NCBI GenBank assembly: GCA_964006375.1
Contig: OZ023262.1
Location: forward strand, 193,066,907-193,130,906
DNA: 64,000 nucleotides
DNA from: Tillus elongatus
Taxonomy: Eukaryota > Arthropoda > Insecta > Coleoptera > Cleridae
Direction of reading: 5' to 3'
The notes under the pieces are model-generated. The model ran no database searches, was not told the DNA's origin, and saw only the letters and a program-made list of their open reading frames with translations. A program made the translations under genes and the position numbers. Every line of letters starts with the position of its first letter. Within the stretch, counting starts at the first letter, position 1. Below, one piece after another: positions 25,875 to 54,538 of the stretch.

Positions 25875-27090
25875 CTCAGGGCTCGTCCACGGCCTTGCCG
25901 CCTAATAGCACTGCAACCTTTGGTTGATTGTGCATACCCGTAGTCTTACTCCACCCATTACAAAATCACTGTGCCTTGAACTAGTCTGCACAGCGATTGG
26001 TAGGGTGAAGTTTTATATTACTCTGTCTCCGGTCTAGACTGACCGTAGATCAGTTGTCTTTTGCGGTTTAGAGCTTTACACTCGCACAAGATGTGCTGTG
26101 CTGATTCCTCCCCCTCGCCGAAGAGTCTGCATGCGAGGTCCCCTTCGAACCGCTCCATTTTATGCAGGTGTTTCTTGACGGCGATGTGTCACATCAAGAG
26201 TTATGTTATGTTCCTGAGCTATCCCCTGCTAAGATTTAGCAGCTCCACATCTCTCTTTGAACTGGTTTCCTCAATTACCGACTTCCCATGTCTGAACCCT
26301 GGACGCGTTATGCTCGTTTCTGACCCAGGACTTAATGGGTCTCCCGTCAAGAGACCTGTTGTGTTTCTGAGCTGTCCTCTGCTAAGATTTAGCAGCTCCA
26401 CAGCTCTCTTTGAACTTGATCCGTCAATTATTGACTTCCCATAACTGAGCCCTGGACAGTCCGCCCAGTACACCTTGTGTTGGTTTCTGACCCAGGACTT
26501 AATGGATCCCCTGGCAGTGCTCTTTGTCACGCCCTGAGCCGGTTCTGGTCCCATAAATGGTTCTGTTGACCCTCTCTTCGCGAGACTGTCAGCTTCTTCA
26601 TTGCCTTTGACCCCCGAGTGACCCGGCACCCAGATGAGGGTCACCTCATTCTCTTCTCGTCTCGGCACTCACACAGCAGCCAGGAATTTACCCGTGGGCT
26701 ACTTAGTGCCTTAAGGGCTTCCTGGCTGTCTGTGGCTATGGGGATCCGCTTGTTGGTGTAGCCCCTCCTCTTGTTCTCCCTCACACAGTGCAGGATGGCG
26801 TAGATTTCGGCCTGAAACACCGTTGCATGGGCTCCGAGGGAAATACTATGACTTACCCTCGGTCCTTCCGAGTAAACACCTGCCCCCGTCCCACGCTCTC
26901 CGCCGGATCCGTCCGTGAACCAGACGAGCGCGTCCCGTGGTATGCCCGGCGTCTCCTCCCGCCATGCCTCGCGGTCGGGGATTTCCACTGTAAAGTTGTT
27001 TTCCCTGCACATTCGCGGGCTCGCGAAGTATGACCTCATTTCAAGAATGGGCTCCTTCACGATCTCCTGAATTTTGCAGTGGCCCCTGAA
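25868..27090 (-). pseudogene. LINE ORF2 C-terminal part: RNase H and zinc knuckle (R1/LOA-like)
   Basis: Minus-strand frame 26641-27060 holds the RNase H start: 'ALVWFTDGSGGERGTGAGVY' (first Asp), 'VFQAEIYAILHC' (Glu), 'IPIATDSQEALKAL' (second Asp). Frame 26219-26668 continues with 'VTLIWVPGHSGVKGNEEADS' (last Asp), then 'STEPFMGPEP'. A knuckle region 'RLFGEGEESAQHILCECKAL' lies near 26060-26150. All four RNase H acidic residues persist, but the frame shifts near 26650 and a 155-bp segment is tandemly duplicated (about 26211-26520). The RT is absent (5' truncation near 27090). The 3' end lies at about 25868-25880. Confidence 0.85.
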
Positions 27091-27559
27091 GGTTGATCTT
27101 CAGTCTACCATCATAACGCACTTGCTGCCGGCATACTTTTTTACAGATAGAATTAATTTATTTATTTAATAAATTAAAATTAATTTAACTGTAGCAAAAA
27201 TATACTTCGTAAATGTGAAAATACCTATGTATATATTCTTTTCGAATACCAACATGAGTTAAAAGCATTTCTAAATTAAAACTTCTCTTCTAATGCGTCG
27301 CTTTCTAGATATTCCATTAGAAATTAAACATATAAAATATAATTAGGAATTAACTGTGACCAAAATACAAAAGCATACATACGAGTACAACAATAGCGGT
27401 TCTAGTTATACAAAACAATATAAATAAATCAACCTGCTGTATGTCGACGTACTGAAAGTATTTTAATCGAATAAAACATTTGCAGCACAATGTCATAACT
27501 CAAACACAATTAAGATGCAGTATTCTCTGCCTGATCAAATTTGCAGTTTGTATGGTAGC
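27091..27559. other. No gene recognised
   Basis: Begins with a worn HINE 5' end ('accatcataacgcacttgct' at about 27108-27127) directly at the LINE's truncated 5' edge; the rest is AT-rich without features. Confidence 0.4.
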
Positions 27560-33588: not shown

Positions 33589-34604
<1,016 letters not shown>

Positions 34605-39039: not shown

Positions 39040-40260
39040 AAATTTAAAAAAATATATATTTCAACAACACACCACGAGGGCTTACAGCCTAAATACTATC
39101 GTACCGTGGGTGTCGACAAGGAGGAAAGAGACAACTTGTTAATTCTGGACTTGAAGGTTTGGAGGTTCGGGGGAGAAGGAAAAACATGTGCCGGCAAGGA
39201 ATTCGACAACTTGGAAGTCCTTGGGACAAAAGAGCGGGCATAAAAAGATGTTCTATGTTTGGTGACCTGGACAGTAAAAGGGTGCATTCGCTCTGTTCCC
39301 CTAGTATATCTGTTGGGTGCAGCATGTGGAGGAACTATAGAAGAAAGCTCCTCTGAGCAGTGCCCATACAGATATCTATAAAAGAGAGAGAGGTCACGAA
39401 CTGCACGTCGGTGGGCAAGGGATGCCAGCCTTTGGGTGAGGGTAGGGTCAGTGATGAGACGTAGAGATCTCTTCTGAATGGAGTCCAGGATAGCGAGTGT
39501 AGAAGCGGCAGCAGCACCCCAGATGTGGGAGCAGTATTCGAAGTTTGGTCTTATTTGTGAAGTATATAAGGTATAGAGATTAGCTTGTAAAAAGTAATTG
39601 CGAGCCCGGAAGAGGAAACCTAATTTCTTAGCAGCCGCTTCTGCAATTGATGTGACATGTTGGTGCCAATTAAGATTTCGATCCACAGAGATGCCAACAA
39701 GTGAAAAGGACTCATTACTTTGAATAACTTGGTTGTTTATTGTGATGGGTCTAGGGCTGGTGTATCTCTTATGAGAAAGAAAGCAAGACTATGATTTGGT
39801 GGGGATTGTACAAGATTTTTACTTCCCCAGTCTAATATTTTTTGGAGATCCACGGAGACAGGACCCTCCATGAGTCTGCAATCCTCATCTAATTGGGTTA
39901 AAGAGACAGGCTTAGAATATTGTATATTTAAGTGGAGAGTGCTGTCGTCCGCGTAACTGTGAACTGGGTTGGATGTGCTAGAGAGGAGGTCATTGATGTG
40001 GAGGAGAAACAAAGTAGGGGCTAAAGCTGAACCTTGAGGAACTCCTGCATTAATTGGATACAGTTTAGAGGAATGGCCATCCACGACAACTAAAATGCTT
40101 CGGTTGGAGAGGAAATTTGCTGTCCACATACAGAGTTTTGGTGGTAGGCCATAGGCCGATAGTTTATTAAGCAGCGCTGCGTGCCAGACCTGGTCGAATG
40201 CTTTGGATATGTCTAGAGCGACAATCTGGGATTCACTGTGTTTGCCGTCGCCACATTGCA
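39040..40260 (-). pseudogene. LINE reverse transcriptase, C-terminal two thirds (jockey-like group without RNase H)
   Basis: Minus frame opening near 40260 gives 'IVALDISKAFDQVWHAALLN' (palm motif with Asp), 'NAGVPQGSALAPTLFLLHIN' and 'VHSYADDSTLHLN' (the YADD catalytic pair, intact). A frame change near 39750 leads to 'VDRNLNWHQHVTSIAEAAAK', 'QIRPNFEYCSHIWGAAAAST' and 'LAHRRAVRDLSLFYRYLYGH', to a stop at 39096. The C terminus carries no RNase H or zinc knuckle. One clear frameshift and 5' truncation; otherwise well preserved, so younger than the other LINE fossils. The 3' end is A/T-rich near 39040. Confidence 0.88.
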
Positions 40261-41638
40261 GAAGAATGGGCGCTGTTGGCGAACTGCAGCGTTTTAAGGA
40301 TTGTGCACGCTTAAGAAAGGGAGACGGGAAAAAATAAGGAAAAGCAGACCACTTGCAAGGGCTGATGACACGAGGGGCAGCTGAATATGGTCACATGAGT
40401 TGTATGATATAGTTACGTCTTTGTATATATGTTATCTGTATACCTATTGTCAATTATTTTCTGGCTGTCTATTTGTTAAGTTTAAGAAATTTTACTTTTA
40501 GCTTCTTCTAGAGTAAAATTGAATGTAATGTCACTTTTGGTGTCATACAGAATCATTTCCGCGAAAATTTGGGTAATTGAGAATGAATTGTAGTTTAAAA
40601 AAGGCGACACTAATTTATTATAAATGAAGGTATCTGATAAAATATTAGAAGAACCAAGTAAAAAAGATACAATTTTTCGGAATTTCAAAGTTACTGGCTT
40701 TACAGTACCTTAATCAGTTTTGGATGCAACTATTTAAAAATTTCTTACTATATTTAGCACAAGTCTTAGACTTATTGAATAAATCTGTTGTATAATTGAA
40801 GACAATAAAGGTAATATTCGTCGTATAAAGGTTATTATTAAAATTTAAAACCTCATTTGATTATGTAAGGTTACCTCAAAAAGATGCTAAAATATTATCT
40901 ACATATCTGTACCAAAAACCATAATATAATGATATCCCTGTCAATCCTATTACCGTAATTACTCTTTAACAAGATGTTCACACAACAAACTGTTAACATT
41001 TGGTACGGCAAACAACATGATATTTAAATCCGTATTTCCGTATTCCAGTAACCCAATACTGTCGTACCTATTTATTGAACCGTGATAGGAAAATCAATGT
41101 ATTAGGTATGTAACACAAAAACACACATATAAATTTTATTAGTTACAGAACTAAATTGATTTGCATAAACAATTCCAAGAAACCTAATAAAGCAATAAGC
41201 AATGATTATCTGGTAATGTGTCATAGAATTATTCACGTACTAAACTAATACATCCTCAAGAAACTTAATTGAGGAATTTATAAAGAGAATTACACAAACA
41301 ACAAAAATCTTACCAGGACAAACATGTAAATATACATGAACAATGGCCTACTAAGGTTCTTCATAAAATGCAACTACATTATCATTATTATTGAATGTCT
41401 CGTAGCAGCTGATGTAGAACGTGTTTTTATTACAAAACGTACACTATTATTACAACTAACAGTTTTCATCGTGAAGACATGAATTAAATGGAAATATAAC
41501 TGTCAAGAATTATGTTAGTATGCAAATAGTTTTTTGCTTAATTATTGCAATATTCTTCAAGTTATAAGAAAATATGTCAAATAACTCATGTTTAATTTAT
41601 ATGCAATTCACAGCAAATAAACAAACACCAAGTAGTAT
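40261..41638. other. AT-rich stretch, no gene recognised
   Basis: Short frames such as 40482-40688 (minus) lack motifs. An inverted copy of a satellite segment (ACCAAGTAGTATGTTG at 41627-41642) sits at its right edge. Confidence 0.35.
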
Positions 41639-42767
41639 GTTGCGAGAATGCATCTAGCCTTACATACTTTGTCCCTATGTTGGGGTAGAAATGGGCCAGC
41701 GCTGACAATTTTCCAAATTGTTAGTTAGTTGTATACAGTCTCTTTTTTTAACACTTTGTATTATTTGGAGCTGGCGTGACAACATACTACTTGGTTCCGC
41801 AACTAGGTGGCGGCACGTCCACCACTCACTTAGTATTTTAAGGCTGGCTATACTATAGCCGTATTACTTTTGGTGCATTTTTGCTACAATTAGTATGCCG
41901 TACTGAAGAGCTCTAATGAGAGCGAACCGGTCTACGGTTCTAATTGTTGCGAGAATGCATCTAGTCTTACATACTTTGTCCCTATATTAGGGTAGAAATG
42001 GGACAGGGCTGACAATTTCCCAAATTGTTAGTTAGTTGTATACAGTCTCTATTTTTTTAACACTTTGTGTTATTTGGAGCTGGCGTGACAACATACTACT
42101 TGGTTCCGCAACTAGGTGGCGGCACGTCCACCACTCACTTAGTATTTTAAGGCTGGCTATACTATAGCCGTATTACTTTTGGTGCATTTTTGCTACAATT
42201 AGTATGCCGTACTGAAGAGCTCTAATGAAAGCGAAACCGGTATACGGTTCTAATTGTTGCGAGAATGCAACTAGTCTTACATACTTTGTCCCTATATTGG
42301 GGTAGAAATGGACCAGGGCTGACAATTTCCCAAATTGTTAGTTAGTTGTATACAGTCTCTATTTTTTTAACACTTTGTGTTATTTGTAGCTGGCGTGACA
42401 ACATACTACTTGGTTCCGCAACTAGGTGGCGGCACGTCCACCACTCACTTAGTATTTTAAGGCTGGCTATACTATAGCCGTATTACTTTTGGTGCATTTT
42501 TGCTACAATTAGTATGCCGTACTGAAGAGCTATAATGAGAGCGAAACTGGTCTACGGTTCTAATTGTTGCGAGAATGCATCTAGTCTTACATACTTTGTC
42601 CCTATATTGGGGTAGAAATGGGCCAGGGCTGACAATTTTCCAAATTGTTAGTTAGTTGTATACAGTCTCTATTTTTTTTAACACTTTGTGTTATTTGGAG
42701 CTGGCGTGACAACATACTACTTGGTTCCGCAACTATGTGGCGGCACATCCACCACTCACTTAGTACT
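41639..42767 (+). repeat. 310-bp satellite, 3.7 tandem units
   Basis: Units start at GTTGCGAGAATGCA at 41639, 41946, 42256 and 42566 (spacing 307, 310, 310). The last stops near 42767 within 'cactcacttagtac'. Units differ at only a handful of positions. Each contains a short inverted pair (GAAACCGGTCTACGGTTC). No coding potential; the 72-codon frame at 42602-42820 is chance. Confidence 0.95.
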
Positions 42768-42970
42768 TTGATTTCAAGTAAATAAACAGCAACTAATAAA
42801 ACCGCGTTTGAAATCAACAAACAAATTTATTACAGTTCCTACGGCCCTAAATAGTTGACAAAACAATCAACTTTCAAACCTGTTTTGACTATTGCAAAAA
42901 GCATATTTTATTTAAGTTGAAAACATACACAGTTTTATAAAGTGTTTCTAGACTTTTTCTCCTTATCTAG

Positions 42971-51592: not shown

Positions 51593-51598
51593 TTTCTT

Positions 51599-51841
51599 AG
51601 TAGGTATAGATGGTATGTTCTGGAACCACCACCGCCACTCCACCACCGGTGGTGGAGGTGGAGGTGGTGGAACTGACCAGACCCGACGGCCCCCGACCAG
51701 ACCGGTGGTGGACCCGACGGCCCCCGAGCACCTCCACCACCTGACTTCGTATTTAACTCGAACAAGTAGCGAACTAACCTGAGATGACGTAATCAAAAAC
51801 CAACTAACCTGTAGTAAGCAAACGAGGAGTCACCAGTTAAA
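51599..51841 (+). repeat. Left terminal inverted repeat with palindromic GC-rich core
   Basis: Contains a near-perfect palindrome at about 51632-51680 (centre CCACCACCGGTGGTGG). It is followed by a duplicated motif (ACCCGACGGCCCCCGA twice, about 51691-51728), then a less GC-rich inner part with 'aactaacct' twice. It matches 53831-54073 in reverse. Confidence 0.92.
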
Positions 51842-52551
51842 CATGGCGGCTAGCGCATGCGTACAAGCAATTTTTTATTTGTTGGTTAAAGTCCTACGTG
51901 TTTGGTGTCATATCACTCGTCTAGGTAAGCAGAATCCAAATTTAACATATGTACATGTGTACAATAAAAAATTTATATTCTTAAGTCTTTTGGGAATCGG
52001 TTTGATTTAAAGAATCTGTTGAAAGTAGAGCTGGCAACAATACCTCTAGTGGTAGCCGCGATATCGCTTCCAACTATGACTATATTTAGCATTTCCCGAA
52101 ATTAACCTTGTTAGCCAACATATTTTCCTTGCAGCTGTTGAAATAACCTTGTGAGGAGTTTATATTTCCTGTTTGTGGTTTTATTTCCGTTGAATGGCCT
52201 TAAAGTCATATGAAATAGAAAAAACTCCAGAATTTTAAACAAAGGTGGGGATATAATTATAAAAACACCGAGTGACATGCAAGCACATCAGTCTACAATT
52301 TGCTCACAGTAGTTATTCTTAGTAGTTATAGGATCCTGGACACTCCATTTAAATACATGTAAATTTTGTAGTCTACTATGGACAGTCAAGTCTACCTCTG
52401 GACATTTAAGTCAACCCTGGACATAATTATAACGGTGTTTAAATGCAAATAGATTGAATTATTTTGCGGGGAGTCAGGTATGGACAAGGTGTTATTAATA
52501 ATAAAAACAGTGGTAAAATATAAAAATATAATATATTTACTCAAGTGTACA

Positions 52552-53370
52552 CTACAGCATGCTAACTAATTTCAAAATTGTCTCCCTTTGCAATTCTGCT
52601 TTTTTATTTAGACCCAGCTCCATTAACTGTTTGATCAGCTGTTTCTTTTGAACTTGTTTTTCTCTGTACGCCTTTCTGATTGCAATTCCCTTTTCTGTTT
52701 GGTAAAACACTCTTCTCTTTTCATTAGCTTCCTGTCTTCTACGAATACCCGAAGCTCCTCTGGTGCACTGGCAAGTCTCTTTATTGTGCAACTCGTTCAC
52801 TGATGCGTAAACTAATACGTTTTTAACTCCTTTTGATGCTAAACATGATATTTCATCTCTTACAGAAGCACACATTTTTCCTCTACCATGCAGCCAAGAA
52901 TCACAGTACACTCGCCTAGAATAGTGCGAATGCGGCGTTCCACGAAGACCATCGCCATCTCTTTGAAGGGGTTTCTGCCCATCTGCACAAGCAATATACC
53001 TTAATACTCCAACAGCATGATCTAGACAGATTATTTTCTTGAAAGTTGTTTTAGGATGCAAACGTCGCCCTACACGTTGAAGCTTCTTTTTAAATCCCTG
53101 AACCGTAGACCCATTTGTAAAATGTATCAAAGCGTGCATATGTTCATGCGCCACACTTCCATCATCTGCTTCTAGATGACATCGACAAATTGAATACCAC
53201 TTAATATTTGGTACACAAACTAACAAATTAAAATCTTCTTCATTTAACAGAAGATGAAACCACTGCGTAACACACTCTTCGTAATCTTTGGCCATCTCTT
53301 GTGGTGAAATCGCCTTAATGTCATTAACATTTAGTAAACTCAGATAATCAGCTTTTGATATGGAAGCCAT
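52552..53370 (-). CDS. HUH/Rep-like nickase candidate, 272 aa
   Basis: Uninterrupted frame beginning MASISKADYLSLL; I chose this start because it is the first ATG and the frame closes shortly upstream. Seen: a hydrophobic strand 'IKWYSICRCHLEADDG' (57-71), then 'HEHMHALIHF' (75-84) with a His-Met-His pair flanked by hydrophobics, helix 'TVQGFKKKLQRV' (89-100), strand 'TTFKKIICLDHAVGVLRYIA' (108-127), with Tyr125 in RYIACADG. This order (strand, HxH, helix, strand, Tyr) is that of HUH endonucleases such as CRESS-DNA Rep, where Tyr attacks DNA; the usual lysine after Tyr is not evident. 'RDGDGLRGTPHSHYSRRV' follows, then a Lys/Arg-rich, probably helical C terminus (205-272). No helicase or ATP-binding motif. 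Function is inferred from motif order only. Confidence 0.6.
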   Translation of the reverse strand: MASISKADYLSLLNVNDIKAISPQEMAKDYEECVTQWFHLLLNEEDFNLLVCVPNIKWYSICRCHLEADDGSVAHEHMHALIHFTNGSTVQGFKKKLQRVGRRLHPKTTFKKIICLDHAVGVLRYIACADGQKPLQRDGDGLRGTPHSHYSRRVYCDSWLHGRGKMCASVRDEISCLASKGVKNVLVYASVNELHNKETCQCTRGASGIRRRQEANEKRRVFYQTEKGIAIRKAYREKQVQKKQLIKQLMELGLNKKAELQRETILKLVSML

Positions 53371-53528
53371 CTTGTAAGAACGATGTGAACAGAATGAATG
53401 TCCAGAGAATACTAGCCGTGTACACCTAGACTATTCCATTATATGGTGCATCTTTAATGATCGCATACTGTCGTCAAACATCGGTGCTGTTCGGATCAGA
53501 CAAACGACCAGTCAACCAACCAAGACAG

Positions 53529-53733
53529 ACAGCTGTCTAGCAGGACAGACAGCTGTCTAACAGCTGTCAATAGACAGCTGTGTTAGACAGCTGTGTTAGA
53601 CAGCTGTGTTAGACAGCTGTGTTAGACAGCTGTGTTAGACAGCTGTGTTAGACAGCTGTCTTAGACAGCTGTGTTAGACAGCTGTGGTAGACAGCTGTGT
53701 TAGACAGCTGTGTTAGACAGCTGTCTGTCCTAA
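53529..53733. repeat. 13-bp minisatellite (GACAGCTGTGTTA)n
   Basis: About a dozen units after an irregular start at 53524. Each contains the self-complementary ACAGCTGT, so single strands could form serial small hairpins. It lies between the gene start and the right inverted repeat of the 2.5-kb element. Confidence 0.93.
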
Positions 53734-53830
53734 TTCTAATGAGATACTTTTAAATTGATTTGATTTTAATAACCAGGTTAGTCTTTGGCATGTGGTTTAT
53801 TACTAATTACTTTTTTATTACGCATGTTAT

Positions 53831-54073
53831 TTTAACTGGTGACTCCTCGTTTGCTTAATACAGGTTAGTTGGCTTTTGAATACGCCATCTCAGGTTAGTT
53901 CGCTACTTGTTCGAGTTAAATACGAAGTCAGGTGGTGGAGGTGCTCGGGGGCCGTCGGGTCCACCACCGGTCTGGTCGGGGGCCGTCGGGTCTGGTCAGT
54001 TCCACCACCTCCACCTCCACCACCGGTGGTGGAGTGGCGGTGGTGGTTCCAGAACATACCATCTATACCTACT
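53831..54073 (-). repeat. Right terminal inverted repeat
   Basis: Reverse complement of the left repeat with a few substitutions (for example GAGATGGCGTATTC against GAGATGACGTAATC). Gly/Pro-rich frames read through it on both strands are composition artefacts. Confidence 0.92.
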
Positions 54074-54538
54074 TTTCTTACACTCGAAACCACAGAATAC
54101 ACCCAGATATATACATTTAAATGCCATAATGTCAAGTTAAGGCTTATGGTGTTTTAAATTGTCAGTGTGTATTTCTTGCTTTATGTTAGGAAATATTTTG
54201 ATAATAAATTTAAAAAAAAACGATTCCTAGAGGTGTTCTTGGGAAGTGATGACAATGATAAGAGCAAAAGATGGAATGAGAAAATTGTGGAATTATATTT
54301 AAGTTACTTTATAAAAAATACGCCAAAATGTAATTTGTCATTGTGTTTCTGGAAGTTTCACTACGATCGTCTGGATCCAATATATAAAAACTACACCCTG
54401 AGCCAATACAACCAAAAATGTCTTTGTTAAATTATGCATTATAAAATTAATTTTCATAAAGTTTTATATTAATAAAATTAACCACTGAAATGGAGCTTTG
54501 GAATGGCTTATCGCACTCATTCCAAGGAAATTTTTGAG

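Follow-up and report, generated by a model that had tools for sequence, protein, structure and literature searches.

The 64,000-nt stretch of Tillus elongatus DNA analysed here (contig OZ023262.1, positions 193,066,907 to 193,130,906; hereafter the window) contains, at 51599-54073, a 2475-bp unit with long inverted arms and a single gene for a small HUH/Rep-like protein. This outer unit is a composite of two elements: an interior-deleted Maverick/Polinton, and within it half of a palindromic HUH transposon. The two arms, 51599-51841 and 53831-54073, are 243 nt each with 98% identity, far beyond chance, and TTTCTT lies directly outside both of them (51593-51598 and 54074-54079). The open reading frame (ORF) at 52552-53370 of the minus strand encodes 272 aa with H77-M-H79 and Y125, and no second ORF of at least 100 aa was found in the unit. 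In these respects an earlier sequence-only reading of the locus, which had noticed the single His-Met-His and Tyr protein, the long repeats and the duplication, was borne out. Its clean 2.5-kb unit has real boundaries, but does not correspond to a single element. The parts are as follows, where L numbers designate loci and C numbers contigs of the host assembly.

51593-51598: left target-site duplication (TSD) TTTCTT of the Maverick-derived unit, seen in the sequence
51599-51841, plus strand: left terminal inverted repeat (TIR) of the Maverick-derived unit, beginning AGTAGGTA; G+C-rich with internal palindromes, and identical in the HUH-free Maverick copy L057
51842-52327, plus strand: left subterminal Maverick sequence, from genome matches; L057 and L058 continue here without HUH
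52328-52330, plus strand: junction ATA, read as target-derived; the uninterrupted Maverick reads AGTT^ATAGTAG
52331-53731: half of the palindromic HUH transposon, matching the equivalent part of L043 at 99.93% identity
52337-52486, plus strand: five TGGACA repeats in one orientation (52337, 52379, 52399, 52418, 52481), candidate iterons for binding of the HUH protein
52552-53370, minus strand: gene for the 272-aa HUH/Rep-like protein, from ORF, motif, model and homologues
53371-53523, minus strand: 5' region of the gene, up to the central array
53524-53731: central array of 13-bp AGACAGCTGTGTT units with a ACAGCTGT core and two further units of 20 bp; it contains the dyad of the palindrome
53732-53830, plus strand: right subterminal Maverick sequence; a 92% match adjoins terminal-repeat sequence in the L048 Maverick piece
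53831-54073, minus strand: right TIR of the Maverick-derived unit, ending TACCTACT
54074-54079: right TSD TTTCTT

An outer Maverick remnant around the HUH element

The subterminal sequence 51842-52327 was used to search the host assembly (1.72 Gb in 30 contigs), and the best 40 matches of 934 candidates, the window's own included, were scored. One HUH-free copy on contig C5 (L057) shows 100% identity with the window over the 733 nt that run from the TIR as far as the HUH junction, and then continues as AGTT^ATAGTAG into a 275-residue frame with 96% protein identity to a frame lying upstream of the KilA-N gene at L040. A second HUH-free copy, on C3 (L058), continues identically. The outer unit, with its 243-bp TIRs, termini AGTAGG and TSD of 6 bp, is a Maverick/Polinton whose interior has been lost. 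The repeats and duplication, which had been attributed to the HUH element itself, are those of the Maverick, as the HUH-free copy enters a Maverick gene. Since tblastn with Maverick polymerase, integrase, ATPase, protease and capsid queries gave no match inside the window unit, except for an HUH end lying within the interrupted polymerase query, we regard the unit as a remnant; no Maverick protein match was obtained in the remaining window, which served as a control. The Maverick TIR folds better than its shuffled versions (z -3.0).

Around other HUH copies, Pfam matches identified a capsid of the double-jelly-roll type (PF21738, 1.1e-75), an ATPase of the Pox_A32 type (6e-9), a protease of the C48 type (1.5e-4), KilA-N (1e-23) and an rve integrase (9e-12), the last with a chromodomain below threshold. 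A further gene near HUH copies, without Pfam match, is presumably the polymerase, judging by its motif. Paired AGTAGGTA/TACCTACT ends surround HUH copies in nine units, seven of which have a TSD: TTTCTT in the window, GTGGCA, AACCCA, TTTAAT, TATTAG, CACGTCAGT (or CACGTC, 6 bp, with an extra AGT assigned to the end) and TACCCC (with a 3-nt offset, ACT). No TSD was found at the paired-end units L039 and L049. Vertebrate Mavericks are described as having 6-bp TSDs and an AGT end motif that occurs twice and is thought to permit jumping-back during protein-primed replication (PMC8097293). The named relatives of the capsid come mainly from beetles such as Phaedon, Sitophilus, Aromia and Onthophagus. 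With the capsid query L047:738-2039, all 97 scored genes (the best of 7280 candidates) were 100% identical in protein, which suggests a very recent Maverick expansion. At an assumed 20 kb each, the 7280 candidates would correspond to about 8% of the genome, a loose bound for capsid-bearing copies.

A palindromic element with exact ends, nested in Mavericks

Copies of the HUH gene were numerous in the same assembly: the best 142 of 725 candidates were scored, 133 of them 97-100% identical and 137 without internal stop, and the 224-nt end region gave 726 candidates. Together with the identical capsid genes, this makes both Mavericks and the HUH element look recently active. The 142 scored copies fall into 90 clusters, comprising 30 divergent (-+) pairs, 48 singletons, one +- pair and 11 others. 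Spacers of the divergent pairs measure 373-630 nt in 24 of the 30 and 888-3556 nt in the other six; 12 have a spacer of 532, 519 or 493 nt, that is, 13 or 26 nt apart, and others (e.g. 482, 456, 508) do not follow 13-nt steps.

Long flanks were analysed for the first 20 of the 90 clusters by coordinate (all 19 on contig C1, then the first on C2), a sample not chosen by content. The sampled copies share one end position, which corresponds to 52328 in the window and not to 51599. The order of a full copy is end, gene, 5' region, array, 5' region, gene, end, and the inner element is a near-perfect palindrome with a 13-bp repeat array at its dyad and exact GGATCC ends. The common form, mostly 2.0-2.7 kb, carries two HUH genes placed head to head, one of which may be truncated. 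Inverted arms span the whole copy in eight of 18 two-ended copies (2524-3622 bp, 98.5-99.7% identity), and at L048 they measure 1238 nt at 99.6%. Shorter versions comprise six copies of 1998-2001 bp, with one intact gene, 343 nt of the second and 567-nt arms, and three copies of 1793-1870 bp with arms of 150-265 nt. In eight copies compared, the two arms of the same copy have family variants in common and, apart from the central array, differ from each other at few sites, so that arms within a copy are homogenised; the arrays themselves are asymmetric. As shuffled sequence folds just as well as the terminal 160 nt (z 0.30), we do not propose a subterminal hairpin.

Positions 52328-53731 of the window (1404 nt) align to the start of the L043 copy and make up 53.6% of its 2618 nt. 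They stop about 95 nt beyond the dyad, so that the larger palindrome, centred on the 13-bp array at 53547-53724, lacks its other half here. The window copy would be a one-ended, truncated derivative, a reduced descendant of the complete form. At its inner, truncated end (53726-53740) the sequence reads ATTA and then GGACAG inward, like the normal ATA-GGATCC end; that this breakpoint was a cryptic HUH cut is speculation. Two diverged HUH copies, L036 3237-5019 and L039 2701-5055 (gene about 92% identical), are single genes in small Maverick-ended units of 1.8 and 2.4 kb, possibly an older, satellite-like form.

The ends of the element are sharply defined. The 62 end positions carry 49 distinct flanks, 48 of which meet the end ATAGGATCC. 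For 41 distinct junctions an uninterrupted reference exists among the loci, and ATA directly follows the junction point in 37 of them, against a background of 2.6% of positions in these loci. The base before ATA in the references is C in 18, T in 15, G in seven and A in one; the base after ATA in the uninterrupted sites is G in 19, A in 12, T in five and C in five. The junctions without ATA are L010 and L030:164 (both AGA), L030:1274 (ATG, within another HUH copy) and L048:5989 (ATC, reference 92.7%). The end at L030:164 reads AGAGGATCC, and its closest reference (88.8% over 80 nt) likewise has AGA; because of this, and of the ATA present in the other references, we take the first three bases to be derived from the target and the element proper to begin with GGATCC.

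If ATA is assigned to the element, no exact direct repeat of 3-19 bp was found on the two sides of any of the 18 two-ended copies examined. With ATA assigned to the flank, TA stands on both sides in 24 of 24 copies and TATA in five of 24; a simple TA duplication nevertheless does not fit, because only five of 41 uninterrupted sites read T after ATA. GGATCC at both ends forms a 6-bp direct repeat owing to its self-complementarity alone. Both flanks lie on a common reference in 11 of the 24 two-ended copies, and for L042, L044 and L027 among these only in tandem repeats. An ordinary single-site insertion, with or without a short TSD, was set aside, as none of the alignments listed is contiguous and T rarely follows ATA. 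Each end of the element joins 3' of its own ATA site, each at a different Maverick site. Five TGGACA repeats lie within 160 nt of the end, out of 31 in the full 64 kb when both strands are counted; they are candidate binding sites for the HUH protein. The flanks of L033, L037, L038, L042, L043, L044 and L049 have in common a tandem array of about 217-bp period, which apparently lies within the Mavericks and is a frequent HUH junction site.

In the sample, the HUH element lies in Maverick or Maverick-derived DNA in 20 of 20 clusters. Twelve of these were assigned by a hallmark-protein match, two by KilA-N only and six, the window among them, by paired Maverick termini only. Seven sampled loci (L035, L038, L040, L042, L043, L047 and L048) had supplied the protein queries and thus match themselves, and the identity of five query proteins rests on Pfam matches. 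Three of the 12 hallmark matches are short, those of L045 and L046 (the last 21 integrase residues, at the element end) and of L034 (27 residues, repeated), and all three loci carry KilA-N. At an assumed Maverick share of 30% of the genome, 20 of 20 would have a probability of 3.5e-11 if loci were independent, a value weakened by shared Maverick ancestry. Moreover, HUH ends interrupt different Maverick genes (capsid, protease, ATPase, the polymerase-like gene and KilA-N), which, with the 49 distinct flanks at 62 ends, shows that the nesting does not go back to one inherited insertion. The sequence-only reading had asked whether homologues always lie between such inverted repeats; most copies in fact have other flanks and their own ends. 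Homologues outside any such unit would have counted against it if they were host genes; copies outside the 243-bp repeat unit do exist, but they are mobile and not recognisable as host genes.

In three of the 24 two-ended copies the flank is inverted and duplicated from the exact element end. At C9 (96542324-96551567) the flanks mirror each other over 3272 bp at 100% identity and stop at the Maverick terminus, with TATTAG outside both sides, and at L045 they do so over 2466 bp at 100%, again to the Maverick terminus. At L049, taken together with L055 and L056 (C1:329221000-329231800), a mirrored stretch of 3514 bp with one mismatch extends beyond the Maverick terminus into the DNA outside and breaks off within another HUH gene. 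Same-direction arms with offsets of 335, 721 and 669 bp occur in three further copies, L047 has a target gap of 1051 bp, and in L035 there is an overlap of about 980 bp; the other 16 of the 24 copies fall in none of these classes. Eight junctions recur at different genome positions, one of them within a local tandem duplication on C2, and five recur among two-ended copies, always with another partner flank. The L045 junction is found again in two copies with other partners, that of L049 in one, and that of C9 in a truncated copy. The left junction flank of the window is not among the eight.

The HUH protein

Two AlphaFold models of the 272-aa protein (pLDDT 89.9 and 88.3) suggest a Rep topology, and a fold lacking HUH was not found in either of them. 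By title, about 30 of 50 VIA-align rows per model were HUH nucleases and related T-antigen/Rep origin-binding domains, the AAV Rep and MVM NS1 domains being among the structural matches. The best viral structure matches of one model (mb1d7de7a1f7e) were Glossina hytrovirus proteins (E 3.4e-4), which hints at related folds in large insect DNA viruses. H77 is kept in 140, H79 in 141 and Y125 in 139 of 141 retrieved homologues. In the model Y125 lies within the helix 116-127 that follows the last core strand. Because Y150 is just as conserved (139 of 141), Y125 is put forward provisionally as the catalytic tyrosine, and HUH catalysis by this protein is considered probable.

Sequence profiles did not add to this, as searches of PDB, Pfam and PHROGs gave no support for HUH. 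The protein has no Pfam match, IS200/TnpA families were absent from the Pfam matches at E <= 1 with 32 members searched, and the element, with its single long ORF, has neither an SF3 helicase nor a capsid gene. No relatives were found in viral_contigs or genome_contigs, and a viral or prokaryotic origin is thus unsupported. Named relatives are from the flea beetle Psylliodes, with proteins of P. chrysocephalus at about 70% identity. The dN/dS ratios of the gene against two diverged copies, 0.24 and 0.22, indicate that the protein is under purifying selection. Models, conserved residues and genome copies together support the proposal, made at the outset from the letters alone, of a helicase-less HUH/Rep-like protein on a mobile, multi-copy element.

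Elsewhere in the window we noted a 310-bp satellite (3.7 copies, 41638-42769), 141-bp tandem repeats at 1872-2306 and 34003-34437, and long TA microsatellites throughout. Minus-strand ORF fragments at 26219-27099 and 39096-40390 are taken by us to resemble the reverse transcriptase and RNase H of non-LTR retrotransposons.

Proposed mechanism, alternatives and known systems

The best overall explanation, to which we assign a probability of about 0.68, is that of a nested palindromic HUH transposon that moves as a single-stranded hairpin and is a hyperparasite of Mavericks. The HUH protein would nick at ATA^GGATCC with the help of the terminal TGGACA repeats, and the released strand, being self-complementary, would fold into one long hairpin. 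Its GGATCC 5' end would be joined to a Maverick 3' end at ATA, as in IS200/IS605-like single-strand transposition; cleavage 3' of ATA and joining of this kind would account for the ATA rule. The 3' end of the hairpin, placed at the exact junction, would then probably prime its own extension and copy the Maverick arm back to the terminus, which is how C9 and L045 look. The product would be a snap-back Maverick with two usable ends, integrated by Maverick proteins with a 6-bp TSD, and the TSDs of such units show that their integration was Maverick-like. Recombination between palindromes, or template switching, would subsequently reshuffle the arms, a step needed for junctions that are common to different partners. 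The mirrored flank of L049, which runs beyond the Maverick terminus, does not follow from the simple model.

Insertion could also be HUH-driven while the mirrored flanks owe their origin not to self-priming but to exchanges between HUH palindromes, by homologous recombination or template switching. Junctions of all three mirrored loci recur elsewhere, offset same-direction arms occur, and palindromic copies can recombine in either orientation, all of which favours such an origin. Against it, C9 and L045 mirror from the element end to the Maverick terminus at 100% identity, as a single run-off would, although recombination from one parent copy could still yield the same. We consider this possible but, on the whole, doubtful. 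A wider departure would make the HUH gene a Maverick passenger without transposition of its own, with protein-primed replication and homologous recombination producing the junctions and the palindrome as a by-product. The confinement of all 20 sampled clusters to Mavericks or their derivatives would fit, as would the eight recurring junctions, five of them in two-ended copies with differing partner flanks, and the homogenised arms. The near-identical end at 48 of 49 flanks, the ATA at 37 of 41 junctions and the variety of interrupted genes are hard to obtain without site-specific cleavage and joining, and the purifying selection on the protein also speaks against this; we regard a mere passenger as unlikely.

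That the mobile unit is a new TIR transposon, with 243-bp TIRs and a 6-bp TSD and encoding only the HUH protein, was suggested by the clean ends and TSD of the window unit, and the diverged copies L036 (TSD AACCCA) and L039 are likewise small Maverick-ended units around one HUH gene. L039, however, has no TSD, the TIR region exists without HUH and runs into a Maverick gene, and most HUH copies have other flanks with ends of their own. This possibility is largely refuted for the window copy and very improbable overall. Finally, perfect multi-kilobase inverted repeats such as that of L049 are a typical signature of assembly artefacts, in which long reads with missed adapters are folded into false palindromes. 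Yet divergent pairs make up 30 of the 90 clusters, the central arrays are asymmetric, and C9 and L045 have different DNA outside their two ends together with a 6-bp TSD, so that an artefact is scarcely credible.

Among known systems, the single small HUH protein recalls TnpA (Y1 HUH) of the IS200/IS605 family, as does joining 3' of a short fixed target, here ATA at 37 of 41 junctions. Members of this family insert without TSD. Their target tetranucleotide is reported to flank the left end (PMC6006769). The present element differs in being eukaryotic, in having as ends the arms of one large palindrome and not two subterminal hairpins, in having both ends beside ATA on their own strand, and in lacking an IS200-type Pfam match. 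Replitrons (Craig 2023) are described as eukaryotic DNA transposons of 0.9-4 kb that encode an HUH endonuclease, lack TIRs and make TSDs of 2-8 bp (review PMC10741241). The sequence-only reading had them pair HUH with a helicase, whereas that review, in its passage on them, names only HUH. Compared by this description, the element resembles Replitrons as a eukaryotic HUH element, and in the direct repeat at its ends only through the self-complementarity of GGATCC; it differs in being palindromic, at odds with their lack of TIRs, and its uninterrupted sites do not fit simple insertion. From Helitrons it is set apart by the absence of an HUH-helicase fusion, as the 272-aa protein has no Pfam match and no second long ORF accompanies it.

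The outer unit shares with Mavericks/Polintons the TIRs, AGTAGG ends and 6-bp TSD, but in the window it has no Maverick genes, and the HUH element itself is not a Maverick. Parvoviruses such as AAV combine an HUH nuclease with self-priming hairpin ends. The HUH nuclease, the hairpin self-priming proposed here and the structural matches to AAV Rep and MVM NS1 are points of likeness; in contrast to parvoviruses and CRESS-DNA viruses, the element has no helicase or capsid gene, and the whole of it, not only its ends, would be the hairpin.

Searches of the literature, at the level of titles and opening lines of abstracts, returned no palindromic HUH transposon or HUH parasite of Mavericks; Repbase or unpublished work may hold one. 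The element is a variant of HUH transposons and would form its own class if the mechanism is confirmed. We give about even odds to its being a third class of eukaryotic HUH transposons beside Helitrons and Replitrons: a fully palindromic element, moving as a self-complementary hairpin, that attaches to the 3' side of ATA in Maverick DNA undergoing replication, and whose self-priming makes of the host a snap-back Maverick by which the element is replicated and integrated. If so, single-strand transposition in eukaryotes would become testable, with an explicit cleavage site, target rule and intermediates. Transpovirons and virophages have been described as small selfish elements associated with larger viruses (PMC8877843). 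Their genes and hosts are different, whereas here it is Mavericks in an animal genome that are parasitised; the element would be an animal example of Maverick hyperparasitism, a transposon that exploits virus-like transposons as hosts and spreads by means of their integration machinery.

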